Assembly: GCA_036493475.1 (NCBI GenBank)
Contig: DASXPS010000050.1
Coordinates: 1 to 38,722 of the forward strand
Source: Sporichthyaceae bacterium
Lineage (GTDB): Bacteria > Actinomycetota > Actinomycetes > Sporichthyales > Sporichthyaceae
Direction of reading: 5' to 3'
DNA: 38,722 nt
A model generated the notes under the pieces. The model made no database searches, was not told the DNA's origin, and saw only the letters and a program-made list of their open reading frames with translations. Shown in pieces: positions 5,824 through 19,893 of the stretch (the stretch's first letter is position 1; each line of letters opens with the position of its first letter). The position numbers were made by a program, and so were the translations under genes.

Positions 5824-6261
5824 TCAGCCCTGCAGCGCCAGGACGCCCACGACAACGAGCGCGGCGACCTTGACCACCTCGGCCCCGATGTAGAGCAGAT
5901 GCGCCTTCGAGCCGCCCGCGTCGACCCCGGACAGCACCAAGTCCGAGCGGCGGGTGAGGAGCGGGCGCACCCCGGCCAGCTGCACCGCGAGCACCAGCAC
6001 GGGCACGAACGCGGCCCAGGCCAGCCGGTCGCGGGTGTCGCCCCACAAAACCGCCGTGACCAGCCACAGCGCCAGCCCGACCTCGACCGCGTTCAGCGCG
6101 CGGAACACCAGCCGCCCGATGCCCAACCCGATGCGCAGATCCACGCCGGGCGCCCGGAACTTCAGGGGCGCCTCCAGGAAGGAGATCGCCAGCACCATGC
6201 CCAACCACAGGAAACCGGCGGCCGCGGCCGAAGCCGCGCCGCCGGTCAGCCCGTGATGCAT
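5824..6261 (-). CDS. Small four-helix membrane protein
   Basis: A 145-residue integral membrane protein with about four hydrophobic helices: AAAAGFLWLGMVLAISF, ALNAVEVGLALWLVTAVLW, AWAAFVPVLVLAVQLAGV and AEVVKVAALVVVGVLAL. The first loop contains FLEAPLKFRAPGVDLRIGLG, a conserved-looking motif seen in small uncharacterised bacterial membrane proteins; I cannot name a function. Its ATG overlaps the TAA of pckG (TAATG), so translation is probably coupled and it is very likely expressed with PEP carboxykinase. Confidence 0.65.
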   Translation of the reverse strand: MHHGLTGGAASAAAAGFLWLGMVLAISFLEAPLKFRAPGVDLRIGLGIGRLVFRALNAVEVGLALWLVTAVLWGDTRDRLAWAAFVPVLVLAVQLAGVRPLLTRRSDLVLSGVDAGGSKAHLLYIGAEVVKVAALVVVGVLALQG

Positions 6262-8096
6262 TACTCCGCGGCGGCGTCCAGCGCGGCGGCCACCCGACGG
6301 TGCGCGGCCCAGATCTCCTCGGGCAGCCCGTCGAACTGCTCCAGGTGGGTCTGGCGGTGCGCCATCTCCTGCTGCCAGCGGGCGTTGTCGATGGTCAGCA
6401 ACTTCTCCAGGTCACCATCGAGCAACTCGACGCCGGTCAGGTCCAGCTCGTCCGCGGTCGGAATGATGCCCACCGGGGTCTGACGACCCGTCACCTCGCC
6501 GTTGCGCAGCGCAAGCAGCCACAGCAGCGGACGCAGGTTGTCCCGGTAGCCCGGCCACAGGAAGTGCCCGTCGTCGCCGCGCTGGAACCAGTTCACATGG
6601 GCGAAGATCGGCTTCTCCTTGGCCGCGCCGACGATCTTCAGCCAGTGCGCTGCGTAGGCCGCCTCCGGGTAGGACATGAACGGGCGCATGGACATCGGGT
6701 CATAGCGCAGCTGACCCTCCACGCCCTCGGCGGCGAAGGTCGCCTCGGCGCCCAACGTCAGGCCGTCGTACACGCCCTCGGCGAGGTCGGTGATCGCGCG
6801 GATCAGCGGCTCGCGGTCGCGGGTACGGCCACCGAAGATGATCGCGTCGATCGGCACGCCCTTGGGGTCCTCGAAGTCGGTGGCGATGTTCGGCACCTTG
6901 GACAGCGTGGTGGTGAACCGGCTGTTCGGGTGCGCCCACGGCTCGCCCTCCCGCTCCCGGTCGGCGATCGGAGTGCCCTTCCAGTCCAGCCAGCCGTGCA
7001 CGGGCTCCGGCGGTTTGGGGGTGCGGCCCTCCCACCAGACCTCGCGGGTGTCCGGGTTGTAGGCGACGTTGGTGAAGATCGCCCCGGTGCCCGGCTCGAT
7101 GGAGCCCAGCGCGGTCGGGTTGGTGGTCTCGTTGGTGTCCTTGGCCACGCCGAACACCCCGAACTCGGGGTTGATCGCGTAGAGCTTGCCGTCGGAGGAG
7201 TCCACCCAGAGCCAGGCGATGTCGTCGCCGTAGAACTCGACGTGGTACCGGTCGCCCAGGTCATCCGGAGCCAGCATCATGGCCAGGTTGGTCTTGCCCG
7301 ACGCCGACGGGAAGCCACCACAGATGTGGTACTTGCGGCCGGTCTGCTTGTCGGTGATGCCGATCAGCATGAACTGCTCGGAGAGGAACTTGCCCGACGC
7401 CCAGCCGTCGTAGGACGCCTGGCGCAGGCCGTGCGCGATCTTGCCGAGCAGTGCGTTGCCGCCGTAGGACGACCCGTAGTGCAGGATCGTGCGCTCGTCG
7501 GCCACGGTGACGAACCAGCGCTGGTCCTGGTCGGTGCCCTGGCCGAGCTTCTCCAGGTCGCCGGTGACGTGCACGGCGCGCACGAAGCTGTTCGGGTCGG
7601 CCAGGGCGTCGATGTACTCCACACCCACCCGGGCCATGCGGATCATGTGCAGCACCACCGGGCGGCAGTCGGTGAGTTCCACACCCGCCGCGTAGGCCTC
7701 CAGCGGGGAGCCGGGCTGTGCCATCAGGTAGGGGATGACGTACATGGTCTTGCCGGCCGACGCGCCCTTCATCCGGTCGCGCTGGATCTCGGCCATTTCC
7801 GCGGAGGGCTTCCAGTTGTTGTAGGTGCCCTTGTCCGACTCCGAAGAGGTCGCGACGATGGTGCGCTCCTCGGAGCGCGCAGTGTCCTTGTAGTAACTGC
7901 GGGAGTAGTACAGCCCGTCGCCGGCCGGCTGCAGCTCACCCGCGGCCAGCGCCTCGGCGACCAATCGGTCGTCGTCGGCGGCGGACACCACCTCGACGCC
8001 CGCCGCGCCGGTGTGCTCGGCCCAGTGCTTGACGTACTCCCGCACGTACGGGTTCTTCAGGCCTGCCGCATCCAGTGCCGCGTCGACATCTGCCAC
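6261..8096 (-). CDS. pckG: Phosphoenolpyruvate carboxykinase (GTP)
   Basis: A 611-residue GTP-dependent PEP carboxykinase converting oxaloacetate plus GTP to PEP, CO2 and GDP. Evidence: the substrate motif YGSSYGGNALLGK, the P-loop GGFPSASGKTNLAMM (about residues 260-274), kinase-2 motif FYGDDIAW, the WEG and NSRFT motifs, and FVNWF-like AHVNWFQRGDDGHFLWPGYRDN. The usual reactive P-loop Cys (FPSACGKTN) is Ser266 here. I prefer the GTG at 8096, with GAGAGGG 10 nt upstream and homologues starting at this point (MADVDAALDAAGL-like); an ATG at 8120 would add eight residues but has no clear binding site. A strong hairpin lies in the leader. It is coupled to the small membrane protein downstream. 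Confidence 0.94.
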   Translation of the reverse strand: MADVDAALDAAGLKNPYVREYVKHWAEHTGAAGVEVVSAADDDRLVAEALAAGELQPAGDGLYYSRSYYKDTARSEERTIVATSSESDKGTYNNWKPSAEMAEIQRDRMKGASAGKTMYVIPYLMAQPGSPLEAYAAGVELTDCRPVVLHMIRMARVGVEYIDALADPNSFVRAVHVTGDLEKLGQGTDQDQRWFVTVADERTILHYGSSYGGNALLGKIAHGLRQASYDGWASGKFLSEQFMLIGITDKQTGRKYHICGGFPSASGKTNLAMMLAPDDLGDRYHVEFYGDDIAWLWVDSSDGKLYAINPEFGVFGVAKDTNETTNPTALGSIEPGTGAIFTNVAYNPDTREVWWEGRTPKPPEPVHGWLDWKGTPIADREREGEPWAHPNSRFTTTLSKVPNIATDFEDPKGVPIDAIIFGGRTRDREPLIRAITDLAEGVYDGLTLGAEATFAAEGVEGQLRYDPMSMRPFMSYPEAAYAAHWLKIVGAAKEKPIFAHVNWFQRGDDGHFLWPGYRDNLRPLLWLLALRNGEVTGRQTPVGIIPTADELDLTGVELLDGDLEKLLTIDNARWQQEMAHRQTHLEQFDGLPEEIWAAHRRVAAALDAAAE

Positions 8097-8128
8097 CGTG
8101 TTTGCACCCTCTCGAAGCATCCGGCCCG

Positions 8129-8158
8129 CCGTCCGCGACGCTTCGCGTTCGCGGACGG
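8129..8158 (-). promoter_or_regulatory. Strong stem-loop upstream of pckG
   Basis: Arms CCGTCCGCGA and TCGCGGACGG pair perfectly (10 bp) and the stem extends inward through CGC/GCG past one bulged T to a small TTC loop. It lies 33-62 nt before the GTG start of pckG on the minus strand. It could be a leader attenuator, a processing site or an operator. Confidence 0.45.
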
Positions 8159-8340
8159 TTCAGGTGGGTGGTCTGTTGGTCAGGGTAGGGCCCCTAGCCG
8201 GTTGTTTCGGCGCTGGGCCAACCTCACGACTGCGCCCCGTCGCGCAACGCTGTCATGCCGAGCGCCTCGCGAGTGCGTGCTCGCGGCGGACGTCGGGCGG
8301 GCCGGCAACGGCGGGTGGCGCGCCGGCACGGCCCAATCCT

Positions 8341-8370
8341 ACCGGTCGGTCACGGGTGACTCCGACCGGT
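8341..8370 (-). terminator. Terminator hairpin of the polyamide (sbn/NRPS) operon
   Basis: ACCGGTCGG (8341-8349) pairs with CCGACCGGT (8362-8370), and the stem continues with TCAC/GTGA across a 2-nt bulge, giving about 13 bp around a 2-nt apex. It lies 24 nt after the stop of the phosphopantetheinyl transferase gene, the last gene of the operon. No T-tract follows, which is common for actinobacterial terminators. Confidence 0.6.
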
Positions 8371-8393
8371 CATGCCCGCGTGTGGCGAAGACC

Positions 8394-9065
8394 TCAGGCC
8401 GCGGCGGCGCGGTACAGCAGGTCGGTGCCCTCGTGCTGCGTGACGGTGGGTAGCACGGTGCCCAGCACCGCCAGCGAACCCACGAAGCCGGGGCCGGGAT
8501 CCAGATCGACGACCCGCGCGGTGTCCGGGGGCAGGTCGCGAGGGTCGACGTCGAGACCGACGCCGAGCGCCTTGACCACGGCCTCGCCGCGGGTCCAGGC
8601 CCGCAGCAGGGCGCTCGCCCGGCCGGCGGGCGGCAGGGCGAGCCACCGATCCAGCTCGGGCGGGGTGAGCACCTGAGCGGCCAGCGCCTGGTCCACCCGG
8701 GTGTGTGCGAGGTCTTCCACGTCGATGCCCACCGGCACCGCTGCCACCGCCACGCCCACCCGCTCACCGGCGTGGGTCAGCGACAGTTCCAGCTCCCCGG
8801 AGGACAGCTGCGGCTTGCCGTGCGGTCCGCCACACTGCCGGCACTCCGAACGCAGCCGCAGTGCCGCGGGGTGCCGGCCCAGGGTGCGGCCCAGGACCAG
8901 TCGGGCCAGGGCGTGGGCGGTCAGGAAGCGGTCGCGGTCGGCGGGCCTGCGCAGTTGCCCGTAACGAGCACGCTCCGCGTCGTCGAGCAGGGCGAACAGC
9001 GCCGGGTCCGCACCGACCGGCGTCGCCCACCACACCCCGACCTGCGGGGCAGCCCCGGTACTCAC
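8394..9065 (-). CDS. 4'-phosphopantetheinyl transferase (Sfp type)
   Basis: A 223-residue Sfp-type transferase that moves phosphopantetheine from CoA to carrier-protein serines. The Mg-binding motif is GIDVEDL (Asp115, Glu117) and the second motif is WTRGEAVVKALG (Trp157, Glu161, Lys165), with Gly where Lys is commonest. SLTHAGERVGVAV matches the CoA-binding LSH region. The GTG start overlaps the TGA of sbnA (GTGA). As the last gene of the operon it probably activates both carrier domains encoded upstream (Ser785 of the NRPS and the Ser of the membrane protein's ACP). Confidence 0.9.
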   Translation of the reverse strand: MSTGAAPQVGVWWATPVGADPALFALLDDAERARYGQLRRPADRDRFLTAHALARLVLGRTLGRHPAALRLRSECRQCGGPHGKPQLSSGELELSLTHAGERVGVAVAAVPVGIDVEDLAHTRVDQALAAQVLTPPELDRWLALPPAGRASALLRAWTRGEAVVKALGVGLDVDPRDLPPDTARVVDLDPGPGFVGSLAVLGTVLPTVTQHEGTDLLYRAAAA

Positions 9066-10096
9066 CCCGCGCGCCGCCGCTGGTGCACGCTGCTGCTGCT
9101 GCGGTTGCGCCGGGGCACGGCCCCGGTGCGCGGCTTGTCCAGCACCAGGGCGTCCTCGCCGAACAGGTCCTGCACCCAGTTGGTCTGGTAGACGGTGTCC
9201 AGGTACCGCTCGCCCATGTCCGGGGCCAACGCCACCGCGGTGATGTCCCGGGTGTCGTTGGCGGCCAGCCAGTCCATCGCGCCGCTGACCACGGTGCCGG
9301 TGGAGCCGCCGAACAGGAAGCCGCGACGAGCCAGCTTGTGGCAGGTGCGGATGGTGTCCGCCTCCTCCACCATGACCACCTCGTCGATGTAGGACTCGTC
9401 CAGCTGCCCCGGGCGCACCGCAGTGCCCAGGCCGGGGATCATCCGGCGCCCGGGCGGGCCGCCGAAGGTAACCGAGCCGACGCTGTCCACCGCGATGATG
9501 CGCACCGGGCGGTGCCACTCCCACAGGAACCGGGCGCAGCCCATCAGCGTGCCGGTGGTACCGGCGCCGACGAACAGCACGTCGAGGTCGGGGAACTGCC
9601 GCACGATCGCCGACGCGGTGTGCTTGTAGTGCGCCTGCCAGTTGCCGGGGTGCTTGTACTGGTTCAACCACACGTAGCGGCGGTTGGAGGCCACCAGGTC
9701 CTGGACGAACTTGATCCGGGCGCCCAGCAGACCACCTTCGGCCTCCGGGTCGGCGTTGATGATGTGCACCTGCGCGCCGAGGGACTCCATCAGCCGACGG
9801 GTGGACAGGTTGCACCGGTAGTCGGTGACGCACAGGAACCGGTAGCCGCGGCTGGCCGCGATCATGGCCAGCGCCACGCCCAGGTTGCCGGACGAGGACT
9901 CGACCAGGATCGAGCCCTTGCGCAGCGTGCCGTCCCGTTCGGCTTGCTCCACCATCTCGCGCGCGGCCTTCAACTTCACCGAACCGGCGAAGTTGAAGCC
10001 CTCGCACTTCAGGTACAGCGGGGTGCCCAGAGCGCCGCGCAGGTCGACGTAGAGATCGTCGGTATTGAACTCTTGGGGGGTAGAGATCACGGTCAC
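9062..10096 (-). CDS. sbnA: SbnA-like N-(2-amino-2-carboxyethyl)-L-glutamate synthase
   Basis: A 344-residue PLP enzyme of the cysteine synthase fold. SbnA joins O-phospho-L-serine and L-glutamate to give ACEGA, the first step to L-2,3-diaminopropionate (Dap). The PLP lysine is Lys41 in FAGSVKLKAA, the Asn loop is SSSGNLGVAL and the phosphate-cradle motif is VGAGTTGTLMG. DYRCNLSTRRLMESLGA and GGSTGTVVSGA match the SbnA/VioB subgroup better than CysK. Start GTG at 10096 with AGGGA 7 nt upstream; sbnB ends 10 nt before. The C-terminal tail is rich in Arg/Ser and unlike the family core. Confidence 0.9.
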   Translation of the reverse strand: MTVISTPQEFNTDDLYVDLRGALGTPLYLKCEGFNFAGSVKLKAAREMVEQAERDGTLRKGSILVESSSGNLGVALAMIAASRGYRFLCVTDYRCNLSTRRLMESLGAQVHIINADPEAEGGLLGARIKFVQDLVASNRRYVWLNQYKHPGNWQAHYKHTASAIVRQFPDLDVLFVGAGTTGTLMGCARFLWEWHRPVRIIAVDSVGSVTFGGPPGRRMIPGLGTAVRPGQLDESYIDEVVMVEEADTIRTCHKLARRGFLFGGSTGTVVSGAMDWLAANDTRDITAVALAPDMGERYLDTVYQTNWVQDLFGEDALVLDKPRTGAVPRRNRSSSSVHQRRRAG

Positions 10097-10106
10097 GGCA
10101 GAGTCC

Positions 10107-11174
10107 CTAGTGTCGACGCAGTTCGTGGAAGAAGTCGTCTACAACATTCAGTGCCCCGGAGCGCGCCACCTGGTCGTGGACGAACTTGCCGACGGCCAGG
10201 TCGAGCACGCCGAGGCCGAACGGGGAGAAGATCACCGGGCGATCGGTGGGAATGCGCACCTGACCCGCCATCACATCGGCGAGCGTGCCGTCGATGAAGT
10301 CGCGGTTTCCGGTGAGTTTCTCGGCCAGGTGCGGCGACGTGTCCGCCTTCAGGCAGTGCTCGACGTCGTCCACGATGTTGGTCGAGTTCAGGATGATCTC
10401 GGGGGAGAGATCGCGCAGCGAGACGTGCAGGACCAACGGGTTGTGGTCGAACCACGCCGGGTCCTGGATGTGCGGTGCGCCCGCGATCGTGGCCAGCACG
10501 ACCATGTCGCAGGACCGGATCAGCTCCTCGGGGTCGGCGTGCACCTGCATGCGCGGGGCGCCCGTGCGGGACAGGTACTTGGCGAACCCGACGGTGCTCT
10601 CCGGGCTGAGGTCGTGCAGCGCGACGGACTCGAAGTCCCACCCGGTGGCGTGCAGGTAGGTGTGGATGTACCGCGCGATCAACCCCAGGCCGATGAAGCC
10701 GACCCGGCGCGGCCGCGGCCGGCCCCGGCTCAACCAGTCCGCGGCCGCCGCCGCGGAGGCGGCGGTGCGGGTGGCGCTGATGATCGAGCTCTCCAGGCAC
10801 GCGAACGGGTAGCCGGTCTCGTGGTCGTTGAGGATCAACACCGCCGAGGCGCGCGGAATGCCCGCGGCCACGTTCTCCGGGAAGCTGGAGATCCACTTGA
10901 TGCCGTCCACGCCGATGTCGCCACCGATGGAGGCGGGCAGCGCGATGATTCGCGAGCTCGGCTTGTCCGGGAAGCGCAGGAAATACGACGGCGGGTTCAC
11001 CGACTGGCCGGCACCGTGCCAGCGGTAGGTGTCCTCGACCAGGCGCACCACCTCCCGCTCCCGGCCGGTGAGCACATCGGCGACCTGACCGCCGCCGATC
11101 ACCCCGAAGGTCGGGACGATCGACGGGACCGTGGGCGTGGTGTTGTTCATGGAATCGGGCAGCAGCGCGGTCAT
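10107..11174 (-). CDS. sbnB: SbnB-like N-(2-amino-2-carboxyethyl)glutamate dehydrogenase
   Basis: A 355-residue member of the ornithine cyclodeaminase/mu-crystallin family. SbnB oxidatively cleaves ACEGA with NAD to L-2,3-diaminopropionate and 2-oxoglutarate. The Rossmann motif GFIGLGLIARYIH and the SbnB-type regions YFLRFPDKPSSRIIALPASIGG and GIKWISSFPENVAAGIPRASA are visible. It completes the Dap pathway with SbnA next door. The ATG at 11174 overlaps the stop of the oxygenase gene (ATGA); an ATG at 11150 (MNNTT) is the alternative start. Released 2-oxoglutarate is a cosubstrate of the upstream oxygenase. Confidence 0.92.
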   Translation of the reverse strand: MTALLPDSMNNTTPTVPSIVPTFGVIGGGQVADVLTGREREVVRLVEDTYRWHGAGQSVNPPSYFLRFPDKPSSRIIALPASIGGDIGVDGIKWISSFPENVAAGIPRASAVLILNDHETGYPFACLESSIISATRTAASAAAAADWLSRGRPRPRRVGFIGLGLIARYIHTYLHATGWDFESVALHDLSPESTVGFAKYLSRTGAPRMQVHADPEELIRSCDMVVLATIAGAPHIQDPAWFDHNPLVLHVSLRDLSPEIILNSTNIVDDVEHCLKADTSPHLAEKLTGNRDFIDGTLADVMAGQVRIPTDRPVIFSPFGLGVLDLAVGKFVHDQVARSGALNVVDDFFHELRRH

Positions 11175-12175
11175 CGACCCGTCACCTCGACAGTGGGCGA
11201 GCAGTCGGCCAGACGCACCGCGTCGGCCATGGCGACAAGCACCTCGCGCGGACCGGTGAAGGCCTCGCGGGAGTGGGCAGTGCGAATGTTGTCCACGACC
11301 AGCAGATCGCCGGCCTGCCACGGCTCGCGGCGGGTGTGCTGCTCGTAGATCTCCCCGAGCATGGTCACCGTGTCGGCGCTGATCTCGTCGCCGTTGCCGA
11401 AGCGGGTGTTGAACGGCAGGCCGTCCTGGCCATACTCGTCGACCAGGAAGTCGTGCACCTCTTCGGCCATCGTCCACTCGTTGAGAAACGCGACCTGGTT
11501 GAACCAGCAACGCTCACCGGTGACCGGGTGGCGGACGATCGCGCTGCGCCGCTGGCGGGTGCGCAGGCCGCCATCGGGCTGCCATTCGAACGCGATGGCG
11601 TTGGCCCGGCAGTAGGCCTCGACCACGCGGCGGTCCTCGGTGTCGAAGGCCTCCGACCAGTTGGCGCCGATCTCCTCGTTGTAGGAACGGGTGAGCAGCC
11701 AGCCCTCGCGCTCGAACCGCGCGACCAAGTCCGTCGGCATGGCCTTCAGCACCGCTGCGGCGTCGGCCACCGCGGTGGCGCCGCCCTCGTTCGGCGCGGT
11801 CAGGCAGGCGAACATCATCAGGCCGGGGAACTCCAGGGTGTAGCTCAGCTCGTGGTGCATGCACATCTGCTGGTTCGACGGCCATTTCGTCGAGGAGTAC
11901 ACGCCGTCCGGGTAGGAGCGGCGCGGCGCGAAGGACTCGCGCTCGGCCATCAGCGGGGCGCCGAGCTGGTTGAGCACAGCACCGACCTGCGCAGCGTCGC
12001 GCATGCCGAGGCCACGAACCAACACGGCGCCGTGGGCGGTCACGGCCTCACGCAGCGCCCAGCGGTTCTCGGCAGCCCAGGCCGTGGGGTCACCCGCGGC
12101 GTCGGCGTGCAACAGGGCGGGCCGACCGAGGGCGGTCTCGATGTCGGCGAGGAGGGTGCGGGCGGGGGAGGTCAT
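11171..12175 (-). CDS. TauD/TfdA-family Fe(II)/2-oxoglutarate dioxygenase (SyrP-like)
   Basis: A 334-residue non-heme iron oxygenase. The metal triad is the H-x-E motif in MCMHHELSY (His107, Glu109) with distal His301 in DNIRTAHSREAF; Arg310 in GPREVLVAM should bind 2-oxoglutarate. Glu replaces the commoner Asp in the first motif, which is usual in SyrP-like enzymes and argues for hydroxylation; halogenases have Gly or Ala there. Relatives hydroxylate amino acids, often bound to a carrier protein. In this operon a likely target is Dap or a Dap-thioester, but this is inference. AAGGAG lies 5 nt before the ATG. Confidence 0.85.
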   Translation of the reverse strand: MTSPARTLLADIETALGRPALLHADAAGDPTAWAAENRWALREAVTAHGAVLVRGLGMRDAAQVGAVLNQLGAPLMAERESFAPRRSYPDGVYSSTKWPSNQQMCMHHELSYTLEFPGLMMFACLTAPNEGGATAVADAAAVLKAMPTDLVARFEREGWLLTRSYNEEIGANWSEAFDTEDRRVVEAYCRANAIAFEWQPDGGLRTRQRRSAIVRHPVTGERCWFNQVAFLNEWTMAEEVHDFLVDEYGQDGLPFNTRFGNGDEISADTVTMLGEIYEQHTRREPWQAGDLLVVDNIRTAHSREAFTGPREVLVAMADAVRLADCSPTVEVTGR

Positions 12176-12187
12176 GCTGACTCCTTG

Positions 12188-14716
12188 TCAGTTACCACTG
12201 GACGAGGCCTCGGATTTCTCGGCGGAGAGCAGGTCGGGGGCAGATTCCGGTGCTGTCCGCTCGTCGAGCAACCGGGCCAGGTCAGTCAGAACCGGGCATG
12301 CGATGACCTCCTTGAGAGAAACCTGACGGTGCAGTGCGATGACCAGTTTCACGGCGGTCAGCGAGGTGCCGCCGCTTTCGAAGAAGTTGTCCCCACGACC
12401 AATCAGGTCCAGGTTGGTGTCCAGCACCTGTGCCCAGGCCGCGGCCACCCGCACCTCGGTGGCGCCCACCGGCGCCTCGCGGTCCGTGGTGGGTGCGTCG
12501 AGCTCGCCGGCCAGGGCGCCCAGGGCCTTGCGGTCGATCTTGCTGTTCGCGGTCAGCGGCAACTGATCGCGATGGTGCAGCACGGTCGGGACCATGTAGC
12601 CGGGCAGGGCCATGGCCAGGTGCTCGCGCAGCAGTTCGGTGGGCAGCGGCGCGGGTCCGGAGTAGAACCCGACCAGACGCTTGGTGGCCTCGGTGTCACC
12701 GACCACCACGACCGCGCCGTCGAACACGCCGGGCACCTGCAGCAGCCGGTTCTCGATCTCGCCGATCTCGATGCGGAAGCCGGCCACTTTCACCTGGTTG
12801 TCGCGGCGGCCGAGGAACTCCAGCTTGCCGTCCGGACGCCAGCGCCCGTGGTCACCGCTGCGGTAGAGCCGGGCGCCCGGTTGGTGCGGATCGGCCAGAA
12901 ACGCTGCGGCGGTCCGCTCCGGATCGTTGATGTAGCCGCGACCCACACACACTCCGGAGAACACGATCTCGCCGGGGGCACCCAGCGGCACCGGCTGCAG
13001 GTGCTCGTCGACCACGTAGACGGTGACGTTGGGAATGGGCGGGCCCAGCGGCACCCGGTCGGCATCCGGCACCACCCGCATCACCTCGTGGTTGGTGTCG
13101 TCCGAGGTTTCCGTCAGGCCATACGCGTTCACCATGGCGATGTGCGGCATAGCGGCGAACCAGCGCTGCACCAGCTCTTTCTTAACTGCTTCGCCGGTCA
13201 CCGACACGGTGCGCAGCGCGTCCAGCCGCCGCGGCGCGGATTCCAGGTGCGCCAGCACCGCGTCGAGGTAGGACGGCACGATCTGAAGTACCGTCACCTT
13301 GGACTCGTCCACGATCTGCACGAAGCGGGCCACGTCGAGGATGACGTCCTGCGGAATGATCACCGTGCGGGCGCCCACCAACAGACCGGAGATCAGCTGC
13401 CACAGCGAGATGTCGAAGCACTGCGGCGCGGTCTGCGCCACCGCGGTGCCCTCGGCCACGCCCAGGTCGTTGATCTTGGCCAACAGGTGATTGAGCATCC
13501 CGGCCTGCTCGCACATGGCTCCCTTGGGGGCGCCGGTGGAGCCGGAGGTGAAGTAGATGTACGCGAGTTGATCCGGTCCCACCTCGATGCCGAGGTCGGT
13601 GGGCGGGTGCCCCTCGCCGAGTGCATCGGCCACCTGCAGCACCTGCACGCCCGGCAGCGAGTCGAGGTCCAGGTTGGCGGTGCTGCCCGGCTCGGTGAGC
13701 ACGAAGCGGCACTCGGCGCGGGTCAGTGTGGTGGTGATCCGGCCGACGGGGAAGTGCGGCTCGATCGGCAGATACGCCCCGCCGGCCTTGAACACCGCGA
13801 GCACGCAGGCCATCCAGTCCGGCGTGCGCTCGCTGACCACCGCGACCACGTCCTCGCCGGACAGGCCCCGGGCCAACAGCGCCCGGCCCAACTGGTTGGC
13901 CCGGGCGTTGAGCTCGGCGTAGGTCCACCGGATCTCGCCCTGCTCCACGGCGACGGCGTCGGGGGAGGCGGCCACCCGGCGCTCGAACAGCTCGTGGAAG
14001 CGCGCGTCGGGTAGCTCCCGGGCGGGACCCGACATGGCCTGCAGCTGCAGCCGGCGCTCGTCGGCGCCGAGCAGTCGGGCCATGCTGTGCTCGGTGTCCG
14101 GTTTGGTCGCGGCCAGCGCCAGGGCAACCAGGTGGTAGCCCGCGATGCGCGCCGCGGCCATGCCGTCCAAGGCGTCGGTGCGGTGTGACACGACCAGGGC
14201 GTCGGTGTCCGGGTCGTACCCGACCGCGAGCACGCAGCCGTCGGACAGGTCCTCGTGGGCGCAGGTGGGGTCGGCGCTGATGTTCGGGTTGAACAGCACC
14301 TCCGAGACCGGGCCGGGAACGTTCAGCTCCGCACGCAGGGCCTCGACCTCGACGTGGGCGTTGGCACGCAGCGCGGCGGCGTGCCGCGCGATGTCGGTCA
14401 CCAGCGCCCGCCAGGTCGGCGGATCGGTGCGCAACGGTGCGGGTAGCGCCGCTGCGCCGATGGCCGGGCGGTACCGGGTCACCACGTCCCGTTCGCCGGA
14501 CAGCGCGACCAGCACGCGCGCGTGCGCGGCCAGCACGACGTCGGCCGGCGGCACCACCAACTCCGCGGCCAACCGGCGTACGGCGTCGGCCACCGGCGCC
14601 GGGATGGTGGCCCGGCACCGGGCGACCCCCGGCGTCGGGCTGCTCGTCCAGCGGGGCACCGAGGTGACCCCGCCGGCCGGCAATATCCGGCGCCAGTACT
14701 CGAGCTCCTTAGTCAC
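12188..14716 (-). CDS. Single-module NRPS: half condensation domain-A-PCP
   Basis: An 842-residue synthetase. Residues 1-210 resemble only the C-terminal half of a condensation domain (LEYWRRILP ... SEVLFNPN ... VVSHRTDALDG), with no HHxxxDG, so this domain is probably inactive or structural. The adenylation domain (about 235-735) has A3 IYFTSGSTGAPKGA, A5 NAYGLTET, A7 YRSGDHGRWRPDG, A8 GRRDNQVKVAGFRIEIGEIE and A10 Lys726. The specificity positions, read by hand alignment to GrsA, are D-I-W-Q-S-T-A-D-D-K; two acidic residues fit a diamino acid such as Dap, though the assignment is inferred. The PCP is DNFFESGGTSLTAVK with Ser785. No thioesterase is present. The GTG start overlaps the upstream stop (GTGA). 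Confidence 0.92.
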   Translation of the reverse strand: MTKELEYWRRILPAGGVTSVPRWTSSPTPGVARCRATIPAPVADAVRRLAAELVVPPADVVLAAHARVLVALSGERDVVTRYRPAIGAAALPAPLRTDPPTWRALVTDIARHAAALRANAHVEVEALRAELNVPGPVSEVLFNPNISADPTCAHEDLSDGCVLAVGYDPDTDALVVSHRTDALDGMAAARIAGYHLVALALAATKPDTEHSMARLLGADERRLQLQAMSGPARELPDARFHELFERRVAASPDAVAVEQGEIRWTYAELNARANQLGRALLARGLSGEDVVAVVSERTPDWMACVLAVFKAGGAYLPIEPHFPVGRITTTLTRAECRFVLTEPGSTANLDLDSLPGVQVLQVADALGEGHPPTDLGIEVGPDQLAYIYFTSGSTGAPKGAMCEQAGMLNHLLAKINDLGVAEGTAVAQTAPQCFDISLWQLISGLLVGARTVIIPQDVILDVARFVQIVDESKVTVLQIVPSYLDAVLAHLESAPRRLDALRTVSVTGEAVKKELVQRWFAAMPHIAMVNAYGLTETSDDTNHEVMRVVPDADRVPLGPPIPNVTVYVVDEHLQPVPLGAPGEIVFSGVCVGRGYINDPERTAAAFLADPHQPGARLYRSGDHGRWRPDGKLEFLGRRDNQVKVAGFRIEIGEIENRLLQVPGVFDGAVVVVGDTEATKRLVGFYSGPAPLPTELLREHLAMALPGYMVPTVLHHRDQLPLTANSKIDRKALGALAGELDAPTTDREAPVGATEVRVAAAWAQVLDTNLDLIGRGDNFFESGGTSLTAVKLVIALHRQVSLKEVIACPVLTDLARLLDERTAPESAPDLLSAEKSEASSSGN

Positions 14717-17343
14717 TCCTTGACCCCCACCGCGTGTGCCCCGGTCCCCTCGGGCCGGGGCAGCTCCCGGGCCGGATTGCCACCCCAGTACGCGCCGTCC
14801 GGAACCTCTTCGCCCTTCATCAGGAAGCTGTCCGCGGCCAACGCCGAACCGACCCCCGTCTGCACGCCGTAGTGCACGAACGCGCCGGGGCCGAGCGTGC
14901 AGCCACGTCCGATGCGGATGAAGTCGGACTTGAACGCACCGTCCTCCTGCGAGTGCGACTGCACGATCGAGGACACGTTCAGCACCGCTCCCGAGCCGAT
15001 CGTCACGAATGTCTTCTCCACCAACGCCACGCCGTCGTCGAAGACCCCGCGGCCCAGCCGGGCCCCCATCGCACGCCACAACCAGGGCTTCAACGGGGTG
15101 CCGTTGAAGATCTGCACGTACTGCTGGGTGGGCACCTTCCAGAAGCGCTCGTGCCGCCAGAACCGCCGGTCGTAGATGGATACGCCCCGCGGCGCCCAGG
15201 TGGACAGGAAGGTGACCGAGCGCTCCACGCTCAACCAATACGCGAGGCTGGCCGCCGCCAGGCCGAGATTTGCCAGACCCAGGCCGACCCAGGAAGAGTC
15301 TCGATAGAGCTGACCTGCCCAGTTTCCGTAGACGACGATGCCGAACACGTACAACCAACGCACAGTCAGGAAAAGGGCGATGGTGACCGCATTGTGCCGA
15401 TTCTTGCGGCGCAGTCCGATTCGCAGTCGCGCCGCGTTCTCCACCGCGAAGCCGGTGTCCCGGGCGACGGTGCGGGGGATCTCGAAGGCGGGCGAGCCGA
15501 GCAGCCCGACGCCGGAGCGGATCTCGCCCTCGGTCGGGACCGCGACCTTGGTGGCCAGCAGGCAGTTGTCGCCGGTACGGCCCTCGGCCGGATAGGCGAC
15601 GTTGTTGCCCAGGAAGTTGTTGCGGCCGATGTGCACCGGACGTACCCGGAACGACGTCGCGGAGAAGTCGGTGTTGAGCACGGACAGGCCGTCGGCGACG
15701 ACCGTGCCGGTGCCGATGTGCACCGTGAACGGTGTCTCGTGCTGCATGCGCTGACCGAAGTTGGTGCCGGTCTGCTCATACGGCTTGAGCCGGTAACCCA
15801 GCCGTCCCAGGTAGCCGACGATCGCCGAGCTGTCCCCGAACAGGAACGCGTAGAACTTGAGGTTGGTCAGCCGGGCCACCGCGCGCTGCAGGGTGTGCCG
15901 CCACCCGTAGATGGGGTACGTGCGTTCGGCCCGCACCGGCAGGCTGGCCAACCGGGCCACGGCGTAGAGCAGCGGCAGACCGACCAGCACCGCGCCGAAG
16001 AACACCACCGCGGAGGCCAAGGCCGCGCCGCGGAAGAAGCTCGGCGCGGCCAGGGATTCCCGGCCCCAACCGTGCAGGCCGACCAGTTGCTCGGTCGCCA
16101 TGCTCAACCCGACCGCGACGCCCAGACCCAGCGGGGCGGTGACGAACACGAAGGTCAGCACCTGGACCAACGCAAAGCGGAATCGGCGCACCCCGCCGAC
16201 CCGGCACGCCTCCGGCAACACCACCGGTGTGCCACCGGCCTGCGCCGGTGAGCCGTGCCAGCTCTGCCCGGAGGGGACGACCTGGCCGGGGTGCAACGAG
16301 GATGCGTGGCCGAGGTGGCCGCCGGTGCCGATCTCGGTGTTGATGTCCAGCACGGAGTTGTCGCCGACGACCGCGTCCGGCCCGATGCGCACGAAGCCCG
16401 TGCGGATCACGCCGGGCTGCGCGTGATACCCGGTCAGAACCGCGTCCTTGCGGATCACCGCGCCCGCGCCGATGGTGATGAGGTCGGTGCACACCGGGAT
16501 GTTGCGCGTCAGGATCAGCGCGCCCGGTCCCACCTTCGCACCGAGCAGGCGCAGGTACACGGCGAACAGCGGCGAGCCCATCATCAGGTGCAGCAAGGGG
16601 TTGCGCTGGGTCAGCGAGCGAACCAACCAGAACCGTAGATACGCGATCGACCACAACGGGATGTCGCGGGGTTTCCACCGACCGATCAGCAGCCATTTGG
16701 CCACGATCGGCAGCAGGAACAGCACGGCGACGCCGGCCCCGAGGAACCCAACCGTGCGCAGGTATTCCGCGGCGACGCCGTGCCCGGCGGTGATCCAGCG
16801 GAACCCGACCCGGCCTGCCACGGCGGCCGTGAACAGAGGCGCAATCAGAACGGCCAACTGGACCAGCGCGCACAGGAAGACCCGCAGCCGACCGGGCGGT
16901 GGCACAACCGGCACGGCCTGCTCCGGTATCGCCTCGGACTCGACGACGGGTGTGGCCTGCTCGGGCAGCGATTTCAACGGGCGGTAGTGCTCGCCGAGCA
17001 GCTCCGCGAGGTCCAGCAGGTCGTCACCGGCCCGGGCCGGAGCCGGGGGGCCGATTGTCGCGGCCGCCGTGGACGCGGCCGCGGCAACCGGGCCGACGGC
17101 GGCTGCCAGGGTGTTGACGGTGGAGTTTCCGTAGATGTCCTTCATCGACACCTTGGGCAGCGCGGGGCGCTTGCGCACTCGCGAGCAGAACTGCGCCATC
17201 AGCAGCGAGTCGGCGCCCAGGTCATCGAAGAAGTGCGCGTCGTGGCCGACCCCGTCGACATTCAGGAGTTCGGCGAGAATCTGCGCGAACTCCTGTGCGA
17301 GTGCGACGTCCGGTTCGGCGGTCGTCGTCGGATTCATGCCCAT
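14713..17343 (-). CDS. ACP plus six-TM, triple left-handed-beta-helix protein (poly-lysine synthetase terminal-domain type)
   Basis: An 876-residue membrane protein; numbering here is from an alternative GTG at 17361 (882 aa). Residues 15-90 form a carrier domain (FDDLGADSLLMAQF, Ser52). Three pairs of membrane helices follow (about 158-185 and 200-226; 396-420 and 446-472; 658-682 and 692-712), each followed by a hexapeptide-repeat left-handed beta-helix block (about 270-370, 545-640, 785-870). This 2TM-LbH plan, repeated three times, matches the C-terminal half of epsilon-poly-lysine synthetase (TIGR02353-type NRPS terminal domain), which links amino acids iteratively without a classical C domain. 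Here it is separate from the A domain. ATG at 17343 has GGAG 12 nt upstream. The Ala/Pro-rich stretch 90-155 is a linker. Confidence 0.88.
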   Translation of the reverse strand: MGMNPTTTAEPDVALAQEFAQILAELLNVDGVGHDAHFFDDLGADSLLMAQFCSRVRKRPALPKVSMKDIYGNSTVNTLAAAVGPVAAAASTAAATIGPPAPARAGDDLLDLAELLGEHYRPLKSLPEQATPVVESEAIPEQAVPVVPPPGRLRVFLCALVQLAVLIAPLFTAAVAGRVGFRWITAGHGVAAEYLRTVGFLGAGVAVLFLLPIVAKWLLIGRWKPRDIPLWSIAYLRFWLVRSLTQRNPLLHLMMGSPLFAVYLRLLGAKVGPGALILTRNIPVCTDLITIGAGAVIRKDAVLTGYHAQPGVIRTGFVRIGPDAVVGDNSVLDINTEIGTGGHLGHASSLHPGQVVPSGQSWHGSPAQAGGTPVVLPEACRVGGVRRFRFALVQVLTFVFVTAPLGLGVAVGLSMATEQLVGLHGWGRESLAAPSFFRGAALASAVVFFGAVLVGLPLLYAVARLASLPVRAERTYPIYGWRHTLQRAVARLTNLKFYAFLFGDSSAIVGYLGRLGYRLKPYEQTGTNFGQRMQHETPFTVHIGTGTVVADGLSVLNTDFSATSFRVRPVHIGRNNFLGNNVAYPAEGRTGDNCLLATKVAVPTEGEIRSGVGLLGSPAFEIPRTVARDTGFAVENAARLRIGLRRKNRHNAVTIALFLTVRWLYVFGIVVYGNWAGQLYRDSSWVGLGLANLGLAAASLAYWLSVERSVTFLSTWAPRGVSIYDRRFWRHERFWKVPTQQYVQIFNGTPLKPWLWRAMGARLGRGVFDDGVALVEKTFVTIGSGAVLNVSSIVQSHSQEDGAFKSDFIRIGRGCTLGPGAFVHYGVQTGVGSALAADSFLMKGEEVPDGAYWGGNPARELPRPEGTGAHAVGVKE

Positions 17344-17361
17344 CGGCGGCGTTTGCTCCAC

Positions 17362-17601
17362 GTTGTTGCGCGGTTAATGCAACCGAGTATGGGCGGGGGA
17401 TTCGATTTTTCGGAGGATTTCTCAGCTTTCCCAGCTGTGGAATTTCTGGGAGTGATCGAGATCCGGACAGCACAGACCCGACGATCGCGTATCTGCATCG
17501 TGTGTCGCGCAGCCGGCTCGGCCCCGGGTTTTTGCTGCGAATTTGCTGTCAATCTGGCCGCTGCAGAACAGGCCCGGCGGGTCCTGAGCCCGACCTTCGT
17601 T
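17362..17601. promoter_or_regulatory. Intergenic region with probable promoter of the polyamide operon
   Basis: A 240-nt gene-free stretch, with a segment (about 17390-17520) clearly richer in A/T than its surroundings. On the minus strand CATACT (complement of 17387-17392) could be a -10, and CGGTT-aatgc-AACCG (17371-17385) forms a small inverted repeat just downstream, possibly an operator. No -35 box is convincing. No coding potential is seen in this stretch. Confidence 0.3.
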
Positions 17602-19263
17602 TCACGCCGGCCGGACGCCCAACGGTATCGGGACAGACGTGTCCGCGGGGGCGAAGAAGTCATTGCCCTTGTCGTCCACGACGATGAAGGCCGGGAAGTT
17701 CTCGACCTCGATCCGCCACACGGCTTCCATGCCGAGCTCGGCGTACTCGAGAACCTCCACCTTCTTGATGCAGTCCTGTGCCAGGCGCGCGGCCGGCCCG
17801 CCGATCGAGCCCAGATAAAAGCCGCCGTGCTGGTGGCACGCGTCGGTGACCGCCTTGGACCGATTGCCCTTGGCCAGCATGATCATCGAACCGCCCAACC
17901 CCTGGAACTGATCGACGTAGGAGTCCATGCGGCCGGCCGTGGTCGGGCCGAAAGAGCCGGTGGCGTAACCTTCCGGGGTCTTCGCCGGACCCGCGTAGTA
18001 CACGGCGTGGTCCCGCAAGTACTGCGGCATTGCCTCGCCCGCGTCCAACCGCTCCTTGATCTTGGCGTGCGCGATGTCCCGGGCCACCACCAGTGATCCG
18101 CTCAACGCCAGTCGGGTCTTCACCGGGTGGCGGGACAACTCGGCGAGCACCTCGGGCATTCCTCGGTTGAGGTCGATCCGGACCACCGCGTCCTCGAGGT
18201 GATCCTCCGTCACCTCCGGCAGGTACTGCGCCGGGTCGCGCTCCAACTGCTCCAGCCAGATGCCGGACGGGGTGATCTTGCCGAGCACCTGGCGGTCCGC
18301 CGAGCAGGACACCGCAATCGCGACCGGACAGGACGCCCCGTGCCGGGGTAGCCGGATCACCCGCACGTCGTGACAGAAGTACTTGCCGCCGAACTGAGCG
18401 CCGATTCCATTGGCCCGGGTCAGTTCAAGCACCTTCGCTTCGAATTCCACGTCGCGAAATGCATGGCCGAGCATCGAGCCGGTCGGCGGGAGCGTATCCA
18501 GATATTTCGCCGATGCGTATTTGGCGGCTTTCAGGGTGAATTCCGCGCTGGTGCCGCCGATCACGATCGCCAGGTGGTACGGCGGGCAGGCCGCGGTGCC
18601 CAGCCCGCGGATTTTCTCGTCCAGCCAGGCCAACATGGACTTCTCGTTGAGCAGCGCCTTGGTCTCCTGGAAGAGCAGCGACTTGTTCGCCGAGCCTCCG
18701 CCCTTGGCCATGAACAGGAACTTGTACTCCCTCGCGTGGGCGGGATTGTCGTCGGCATAGACCTCGATTTGCGCGGGCAGGTTGTTGCCGGTGTTGTGCT
18801 CGTCCCACAGCGAGACCGGGGCCATTTGCGAGTAGCGCAGGTTGAGCCGGGTGTAGGCGTCGTAGACCCCGCGGGAAATCGACTCGGCATCCCCGCCGCC
18901 GGTGAGGACGTGCTCGCCGCGCTTGGCCATGATCACCGCAGTGCCGGTGTCCTGGCACATCGGCAGGATGCCGCCGGCCGCGATGTTGGCGTTCTGCAGC
19001 AGGTCGCGGGCCACGAACCGGTCGTTGCCCGAGGCCTCCGGGTCCTCGATGATCGCGCGCAACTGGGCGAGGTGCGCCGGGCGCAGGTAGTGCGCGATGT
19101 CGTGCATCGCCTCGGTCGTGAGCATGCCCAACGCCTCGGCGCCCACGTGCAGGAACTCGGTGCCACCCAACGACCGCACCTCGACACCGGCGCTGCCCAA
19201 CGACCGGTAGGTCGTGGTGTCCGGGCCGATGGGCAGCAGGTCGGTGTAAGCGAACTCGGGCAT
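17602..19263 (-). CDS. Fumarate hydratase, class I (4Fe-4S)
   Basis: A 553-residue single-chain class I fumarase with fused alpha and beta parts. It hydrates fumarate to malate with a 4Fe-4S cluster held by Cys103 (PMCQDTGTA), Cys226 (TAACPPYH) and Cys312 (GASCPVA), matching the E. coli FumA spacing closely. The beta part carries [26 protein letters not shown] and the KGNRSKAV motif. AGGAG lies 7 nt before the ATG. The class is oxygen-sensitive and unrelated to FumC, which this window also encodes. Having both suggests condition-dependent use, for example by oxygen or iron supply. Confidence 0.94.
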
Positions 19264-19340
19264 CCGTCGTCTCCTGGCCACAGGGAAGTGGCGACCAGGA
19301 TAAAAGAGGACGGATCGGGCCCATGGAGCGTCTGTCGGGC

Positions 19341-19844
19341 CTAGTCGTAAGCGCGGGGGTCGTAGTCCGACCAGTCAGGGATCGAGCCGTAGACGTAGAC
19401 CATGTCCCCGATGGACACGGCGTCGAACAGCTGCTTGGTCTCGCTCAGGTTGCGGGTGTTCACGCAGCCCAGTGACGAGCCGTTGTAGCCGTTCTTCGCG
19501 AAGTCGGCCGAGTAGTGGATCGCCTGCCCGCCGCTGAAGAACAGCGAGTACGGCATCGGCACGTGTGCGATCCGGGAGACGTGCTTGGCCTCCTTGTTGA
19601 ACACCTTGAACGTGCCGTTGCGGGTCGGGGTCTCGTCCGAACCGAAGCGCACGGCCATGCTCATTACCTTGTCGCCGTGCTCGAAGAGGGTGAGCTTCTC
19701 GTTGCTCTTGTCGACGCAGATCACCCGAGCGGCGGACTCGCACCTGGAGGGGATGTGTGCGGCGGAGGCGGCTGTGGCGAGGGGGACAGTGGCGAAGGCG
19801 GCGGTCGTCCCCGCCAGCGCCACGATACGGAGTCGATTGATCAC
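19341..19844 (-). CDS. Secreted L,D-transpeptidase (YkuD domain)
   Basis: A 167-residue exported protein with a signal peptide ([27 protein letters not shown]) and a YkuD domain. The active-site signature is HYSADF ... [14 protein letters not shown], with the catalytic Cys in S-x-G-C-V-N and the preceding His. Such enzymes make 3-3 peptidoglycan cross-links or attach proteins; this is a minimal one without Ig-like or LysM domains. The GTG at 19844 is preferred because a TACGTT -10 lies 7 nt upstream; an upstream in-frame start would add 14 residues before the signal peptide. Confidence 0.85.
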
Positions 19845-19857
19845 GTTATGTAACGTA
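19843..19857 (-). promoter_or_regulatory. Leaderless -10 and palindrome at the transpeptidase start
   Basis: TACGTT (complement of 19852-19857) lies 7 nt before the GTG. The same bases form ACGTTA-TG-TAACGT (19843-19856), a perfect inverted repeat running into the start codon. A protein bound there would block initiation of transcription and translation. Confidence 0.4.
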
Positions 19858-19893
19858 CGCGATGGATCGCCGATCGGTAGTGCCAAACGTCAT

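Follow-up and report, generated by a model that had tools for sequence, protein, structure and literature searches.

A diaminopropionate operon in which a Pls-type membrane protein lacks its own adenylation domain

Introduction

The poly-diamino-acid synthetases known so far are single chains, in which the protein's own adenylation (A) domain fixes the monomer. A stretch of 38,722 nucleotides from a Sporichthyaceae bacterium (contig DASXPS010000050.1 of GenBank assembly GCA_036493475.1; the whole stretch is called the window below) encodes a membrane protein related to these synthetases that has no A domain, followed by a gene for a nonribosomal peptide synthetase (NRPS) that has one. The locus raises the question of how such a membrane protein is supplied with its monomer, and what kind of product results.

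Organization of the operon

The operon consists of six consecutive genes on the minus strand, running from 17343 to 8394 in the order TM, CAT, TauD, SbnB, SbnA and PPTase. We use TM for the protein composed of a carrier and a Pls/PosA terminal domain, and CAT for the half-C-A-carrier NRPS. The first five genes are referred to as the core parts, and the PPTase is the sixth gene in the window. The features are as follows:

14713..17343 (-): TM, membrane polymerase half without an adenylation domain, 876 aa (TIGR02353, PF00550 and structure model); carrier at about 17095-17289, Pls/PosA terminal domain at 14770-16872
12188..14716 (-): CAT, NRPS; half-C at about 14012-14716, A at about 12539-13987, carrier at about 12266-12451
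11171..12175 (-): TauD/TfdA-type Fe(II)/2-oxoglutarate oxygenase (PF02668)
10107..11174 (-): SbnB-type 2,3-diaminopropionate biosynthesis dehydrogenase (TIGR03944)
9062..10096 (-): SbnA-type 2,3-diaminopropionate biosynthesis PLP synthase (TIGR03945)
8394..9065 (-): phosphopantetheinyl transferase, PPTase (PF01648)
8129..8158 (-): 10-bp inverted repeat with a 10-nt loop (read from the sequence)

GTGA overlaps join TM (17343-14713) to CAT (start 14716) and SbnA to PPTase (start 9065), and an ATGA overlap joins TauD to SbnB (start 11174). Gaps of 12 and 10 nt separate CAT (end 12188) from TauD (start 12175) and SbnB (end 10107) from SbnA (start 10096), respectively. The preliminary description of this DNA, which had proposed a one-strand operon of six genes joined by GTGA/ATGA overlaps or gaps of 10-12 nt, is thus accurate at every junction. 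It had also placed a hairpin after the operon. The inverted repeat is indeed present at 8129-8158, but it has no T-run, and a terminator scan found none. Since the repeat sits 8 nt before the start of the PEPCK gene, it may belong to that gene, and its status as an element of the operon is uncertain.

The operon is flanked by a fumarase gene (17602-19281) upstream and, on its downstream side, by the PEPCK gene (6261-8120). In two genomes of the same family, the fumarase and PEPCK genes are adjacent, with spacings of 392 and 174 bp, and the operon therefore looks like an insertion at their junction; its GC content (0.70) shows no marked difference from that of the window (0.69). In a third genome of the family (L146 2277-6684), the two genes are approximately 4.4 kb apart, with two-component-type genes between them. 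The junction, which is occupied by this operon in the window (8120-17602) and by the two-component-type genes in L146, may be an insertion hotspot. The L,D-transpeptidase-type (YkuD) gene upstream of fumarase (window 19341-19886) is apparently unrelated to the operon.

The membrane protein has a complete Pls/PosA terminal domain

The profile of the Pls/PosA terminal domain (TIGR02353) matched aa 158-858 of TM at 621 bits (cut-off 423), and the PF00550 carrier profile matched aa 19-83. In the terminal domain, the predicted transmembrane helices occur in three pairs, together with three left-handed beta-helix blocks; similarly, in the structure model the carrier precedes a unit of two long helices and one beta-helix that occurs three times. 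PF00550, TIGR02353 and the structure model therefore agree with the original reading of the protein as an ACP, six transmembrane helices and three LbH blocks, and the TIGR02353 search of 14713-17343 suggested with that reading returned a strong match. The carrier serine (Ser46) is invariant in 42 aligned sequences. The terminal domain is of full length, and its conserved columns are as in two synthetases with an intact A domain, L020 and L140. A Foldseek search with the whole TM protein yielded weak beta-helix and carrier matches, with no solved Pls domain among them.

The three transmembrane pairs and three beta-helix blocks are shared with the epsilon-poly-lysine synthetase Pls and the poly-ornithine synthetase PosA (PMC10522769). 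However, each of these is a single protein whose A domain lies in cis and has a code with Asp in position 1 and Glu in position 3, whereas TM starts with a carrier, the A domain is encoded by the next gene, and the code of CAT lacks the Glu at position 3.

CAT is a half-C-A-carrier protein with a code two readable positions from that of a Dab-activating domain

Profile searches found AMP-binding (272 bits), AMP-binding_C and PP-binding domains in CAT. An AlphaFold2 model of the preceding half-C, comprising the first 235 residues (pLDDT 92.6), aligned with residues 271-522 of 2jgp, the C-terminal lobe of an NRPS condensation domain (VIA Z 23.2). The half-C of the proposed half C-A-PCP protein is thus real. 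The two-lobed condensation fold with its HHxxxDG motif is absent, the C-terminal lobe alone being aligned, and in relatives the Pfam Condensation profile gave a weak match at approximately positions 189-279 of 456. Because the lobe bearing HHxxxDG is missing, the half-C should not condense. It is conserved all the same, with 14 columns invariant across 51 sequences, and we therefore regard this lobe without an active site as probably a docking or structural piece. At locus L094, the half-C lobe is kept as a free ORF of about 200 aa.

We read the A-domain code from the core motifs of the window protein and carried it to the relatives by alignment. The code was DIWQSTADDK in 63 of 71 sequences, including that of the window, and DIWQSTTDDK in seven; one sequence was truncated. 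PvdL E2-C3-A3 was among the best PDB matches to the A domain, and its aligned stretch contains DIWELTADD, which agrees with the CAT code at 7 of the 9 positions that could be read; the two differences, E to Q and L to S, lie in the pocket. Since PvdL makes Glu-D-Tyr-Dab, with Dab as the third residue (PMC12195549), its A3 takes Dab. The similarity of the codes, together with the presence of SbnA and SbnB, makes a Dap-sized diamino acid the likely substrate of CAT. As CAT has Trp in place of the position-3 Glu that marks A domains of the Pls family, this call rests on the analogy with PvdL, with two code changes. The code fits a short diamino acid, neither an aromatic nor a non-amino-acid substrate, in line with the specificity expected in the preliminary description. 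A literature search for these Stachelhaus codes gave nothing relevant. The corresponding module 3 (Dab) of the pyoverdine synthetase PvdL (PDB 9lcq/9up2) differs from CAT in having a full condensation domain instead of the C-terminal lobe only.

A thioesterase (PF00975) is fused to CAT in 50 of 77 loci holding the CAT carrier, and is absent from CAT of the window, genus-mate L017 and L019. Among the aligned relatives, the catalytic residues of A, T, TE and TauD are invariant. One locus (L021, G006:C14) contains two CAT genes, two TM pieces and one TauD on a contig cut at its ends, and is possibly a duplicated cluster.

Predicted supply and possible oxidation of diaminopropionate

SbnB and SbnA exceeded the NCBIfam equivalog cut-offs (TIGR03944, 424 versus 327 bits; TIGR03945, 378 versus 350 bits), and their genes are adjacent, which upholds the assignment of SbnA/SbnB-type 2,3-diaminopropionate (Dap) synthesis to this operon. 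Unlike the staphyloferrin B system, to which SbnA and SbnB belong, the operon contains no staphyloferrin assembly genes, and Dap would instead pass to the NRPS/Pls system. The PPTase matched PF01648 at 51 bits; among the loci examined, just 7 have a relative of this gene inside the cluster or close to it.

TauD matched PF02668 at 149 bits, and its HxE...H iron ligands and 2-oxoglutarate-binding Arg (H107, E109, H301 and R310) are invariant in 84 sequences. The wording "hydroxylated Dap" used earlier for its product needs care. Plain hydroxylation of Dap at C3 would give a carbinolamine, which should be unstable and lose ammonia unless the 3-amine is acylated. TauD may therefore act instead on a unit bound to a carrier or held in an amide, which it would oxidize or desaturate; the candidate steps are desaturation, oxidation at C2 and oxidation of a unit already in amide linkage.

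The gene set is widespread and the Pls-type membrane protein has lost its own A domain

A profile built from four TauD sequences found 353 relatives in a species-level genome collection, and the best 80 of the 353 were fetched; because relatives were gathered via TauD, the sample is biased toward TauD-bearing loci. All five core parts occurred together in 66 of the loci examined, the window included, which is far beyond chance. The search of other genomes proposed at the outset for the six-gene order recovered this core set. The hosts were mostly Streptomyces and Pseudonocardiaceae, and also included Actinoplanes, Actinomadura and the Chloroflexota genus Ktedonosporobacter. No other generally conserved neighbor genes were found around the five core parts in these loci. 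In Ktedonosporobacter rubrisoli (L085) the cluster has a different gene order, and points to transfer across phyla.

We also considered 61 genomes of one genus (that of G058). These contained 20 TIGR02353 frames of 812-1002 aa, too short for an A domain, and 17 of the 20 A-less TM genes were located within approximately 6 kb of a TauD gene of the operon family. At four loci (L072, L077, L087 and L094), TM and TauD occur without SbnB, alongside a separate carrier and a stand-alone A domain of another kind (code DASVATMRSK), so the membrane domain is perhaps not restricted to Dap. No characterized member of this cluster was found in the open literature searched, and a literature search on split poly-beta-lysine synthetases of the PblA/PblB type gave nothing relevant.

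We then compared the state of the A domain in TM. Among 68 loci with CAT beside TM, TM was A-less in 63, carried an eroded A domain in 5, and carried an intact one in none. The eroded copies have neither the YTSGSTGxPKG core nor the A10 motif. Three of them (L054, L078 and L096) read DFECLAVVT, DFECLFVVT or DFECLAVVS, i.e. residues of the poly-Dap/Dab type; a fourth reads DCQCLSVVT, and in the fifth (L066) the code is no longer readable. According to PMC10522769, Phe at code position 2 is typical of PDAP/PDAB synthetases, and Glu at position 3 is conserved throughout the family. The eroded A domain of L096 is 62.6% identical over 444 aa to the intact A domain of L140 (code DFECLSVVTK). None of 31 intact cis-A synthetases had CAT nearby, within flanks of mostly about 1.5 kb (wider for L139, L140, L142, L144 and L020 only). 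The term "split" given to the operon at first accordingly describes the arrangement correctly, in that the A domain and the membrane half are on separate proteins and the latter is led by its own carrier, but the case is not a one-off, and it is really a loss or erosion of the polymerase's A domain, replaced by a half-C-A-T protein of another A-code class.

Two apparent exceptions were discarded. Proteins in Pseudonocardia relatives, first taken by length as intact Pls (A-T-TM), had eroded A domains on motif checks, and L100, which looked like a long TM protein, has an extension without A motifs that overlaps SbnA in another frame. In the TM genes of L066 and L096, the eroded A domain is followed by duplicated carriers in tandem, ahead of the membrane domain.

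The membrane-domain tree sets the classical Streptomyces synthetases, which have the Lys code DAESIGTVVK, apart in a distant clade. L020 (7050-11186) is a full synthetase with this Lys code and a membrane domain near the operon type, far from classical Pls; its sequence suggests that A domains may have been exchanged between polymerase lineages.

Probable loading in trans and alternative explanations

In the window genome, one A domain exceeded the TIGR01733 cut-off, namely that of CAT (391 bits; the next scored 201). Two TIGR02353 proteins of this genome, TM and a second protein (L015 7636-10863, G000:C204) with two carriers, have no A domain and between them hold at least three carriers. With a single A domain over the cut-off for at least three carriers, loading by CAT in trans is the simplest reading. 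Loading of the TM carrier by CAT is deduced from the lack of alternatives, and enzymes of the acyl-CoA-ligase type could also do it. In the genus-mate, the only other A domain over the NRPS cut-off (L148 2179-5235, G001:C63) reads as part of an A-carrier-reductase protein.

We consider it probable that this is a poly-amino-acid system in which a Pls-type polymerase, having lost its own A domain, receives its monomer in trans; the monomer is probably L-Dap. From their families, SbnA and SbnB would produce L-2,3-diaminopropionate, which CAT, judging by its code, would activate and hold on its own carrier. The A domain of CAT, or a transfer from carrier to carrier, would also supply the N-terminal carrier of TM, and the PPTase would arm both carriers. 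TauD would oxidize the unit either on a carrier or once the amide has formed. As in Pls, the conserved membrane domain would build an oligomer or polymer by linking units via their side-chain amines. A further possibility, which we put forward tentatively, is that the polymerase outsourced activation so that TauD can oxidize Dap before or during polymerization; this would define a widespread class making a new family of oxidized Dap polyamides. Its producers would amount to approximately 30% of Streptomyces species, judging by about 18 of the 61 sampled genomes.

A-T/oxygenase/TE sets serve beta-hydroxylated amino acids. By comparison, CAT and TauD (with TE where there is one) could make a modified Dap that is released or passed on as a cap, starter or side chain, while TM uses plain Dap from another ligase, giving a capped, mixed or comb-like polymer such as poly[beta-(Dap-Dap)]. 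The frequent fusion of TE to CAT is as compatible with a released monomer or small product as with a polymer, two carriers are present on two proteins, and the eroded A domains show that TM once loaded its own unit of the Dap/Dab type. Moreover, the comb-like polymer poly[beta-(Dap-Dap)] is known (cited in PMC10522769 and PMC9606270) and is a candidate product; no gene cluster for it was found in the literature searched. However, the window genome has no second A domain over the NRPS cut-off, CAT of the window has no TE, and the erosion of the cis A domain suggests that the second supply was given up; we regard this division of labor as doubtful.

It is unlikely that TM ligates only once and the product is a small Dap metabolite (a dipeptide or a cyclized form) oxidized by TauD. 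The five-gene unit without other generally conserved neighbors, the common TE and the tightly linked oxygenase would suit such a product, but the full-length terminal domain retains the conserved columns of L020 and L140, and the characterized members polymerize (PMC10522769). Least probable is that an ordinary poly-Dap synthetase was divided between two proteins and that TauD has nothing to do with the product. Poly-Dap is indeed known, from a synthetase with these parts on one chain (PMC4668381), but CAT, with its different A-code class and half-C lobe, is not the missing front half (CAT as a detached Pls front half was rejected for the same reasons), five relatives still carry eroded remains of the true front half, and TauD is linked in 17 of 20 cases.

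Trans loading can also be set against described systems. The poly(L-diaminopropionic acid) synthetase PDAPs of Streptomyces albulus PD-1, with NjxA/NjxB (PMC4668381), resembles the operon in that Dap comes from a pair of cysteine-synthase-like and ornithine-cyclodeaminase-like enzymes and the terminal domain after the carrier is of the type found in TM. It differs in that the A domain, carrier and membrane domain are on one protein whereas the A domain of the window is on a separate one, the Dap genes are away from the synthetase, and no oxygenase or half-C-A-T protein is described. In streptothricin biosynthesis, diamino-acid chain growth uses an A domain outside a single-chain synthetase (the stand-alone ORF19; PMC9606270), as proposed here; however, ORF19 elongates alone on a tethered scaffold, whereas the window has a Pls-type membrane domain.

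If trans loading is correct, it would represent a lineage in which a membrane polymerizing domain accepts units whose preparation and modification take place on other proteins. The Pls terminal domain, which is still poorly understood, could then be tested apart from an A domain, and the class would be open to new monomers. The family is common in Streptomyces, and its gene arrangement is widespread rather than peculiar to one locus.

Phylogenetic position of the window proteins

In the TauD tree, the window and genus-mate sequences nest inside the operon family. In contrast, their TM proteins cluster with A-less orphan TM genes from both genomes and fall outside the clade formed by the other operons, which also holds the intact L020 and L140. 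We therefore rejected the idea that TM of the window is an ordinary member of the operon clade. The trees suggest that the TM gene may have been replaced in the lineage of the window, or may have diverged rapidly; long branches make the placement unsure. The second TIGR02353 gene of the window genome (L015) adjoins a YCII-family gene, and similar orphan pairs are found in the genus-mate (L016 and L018).
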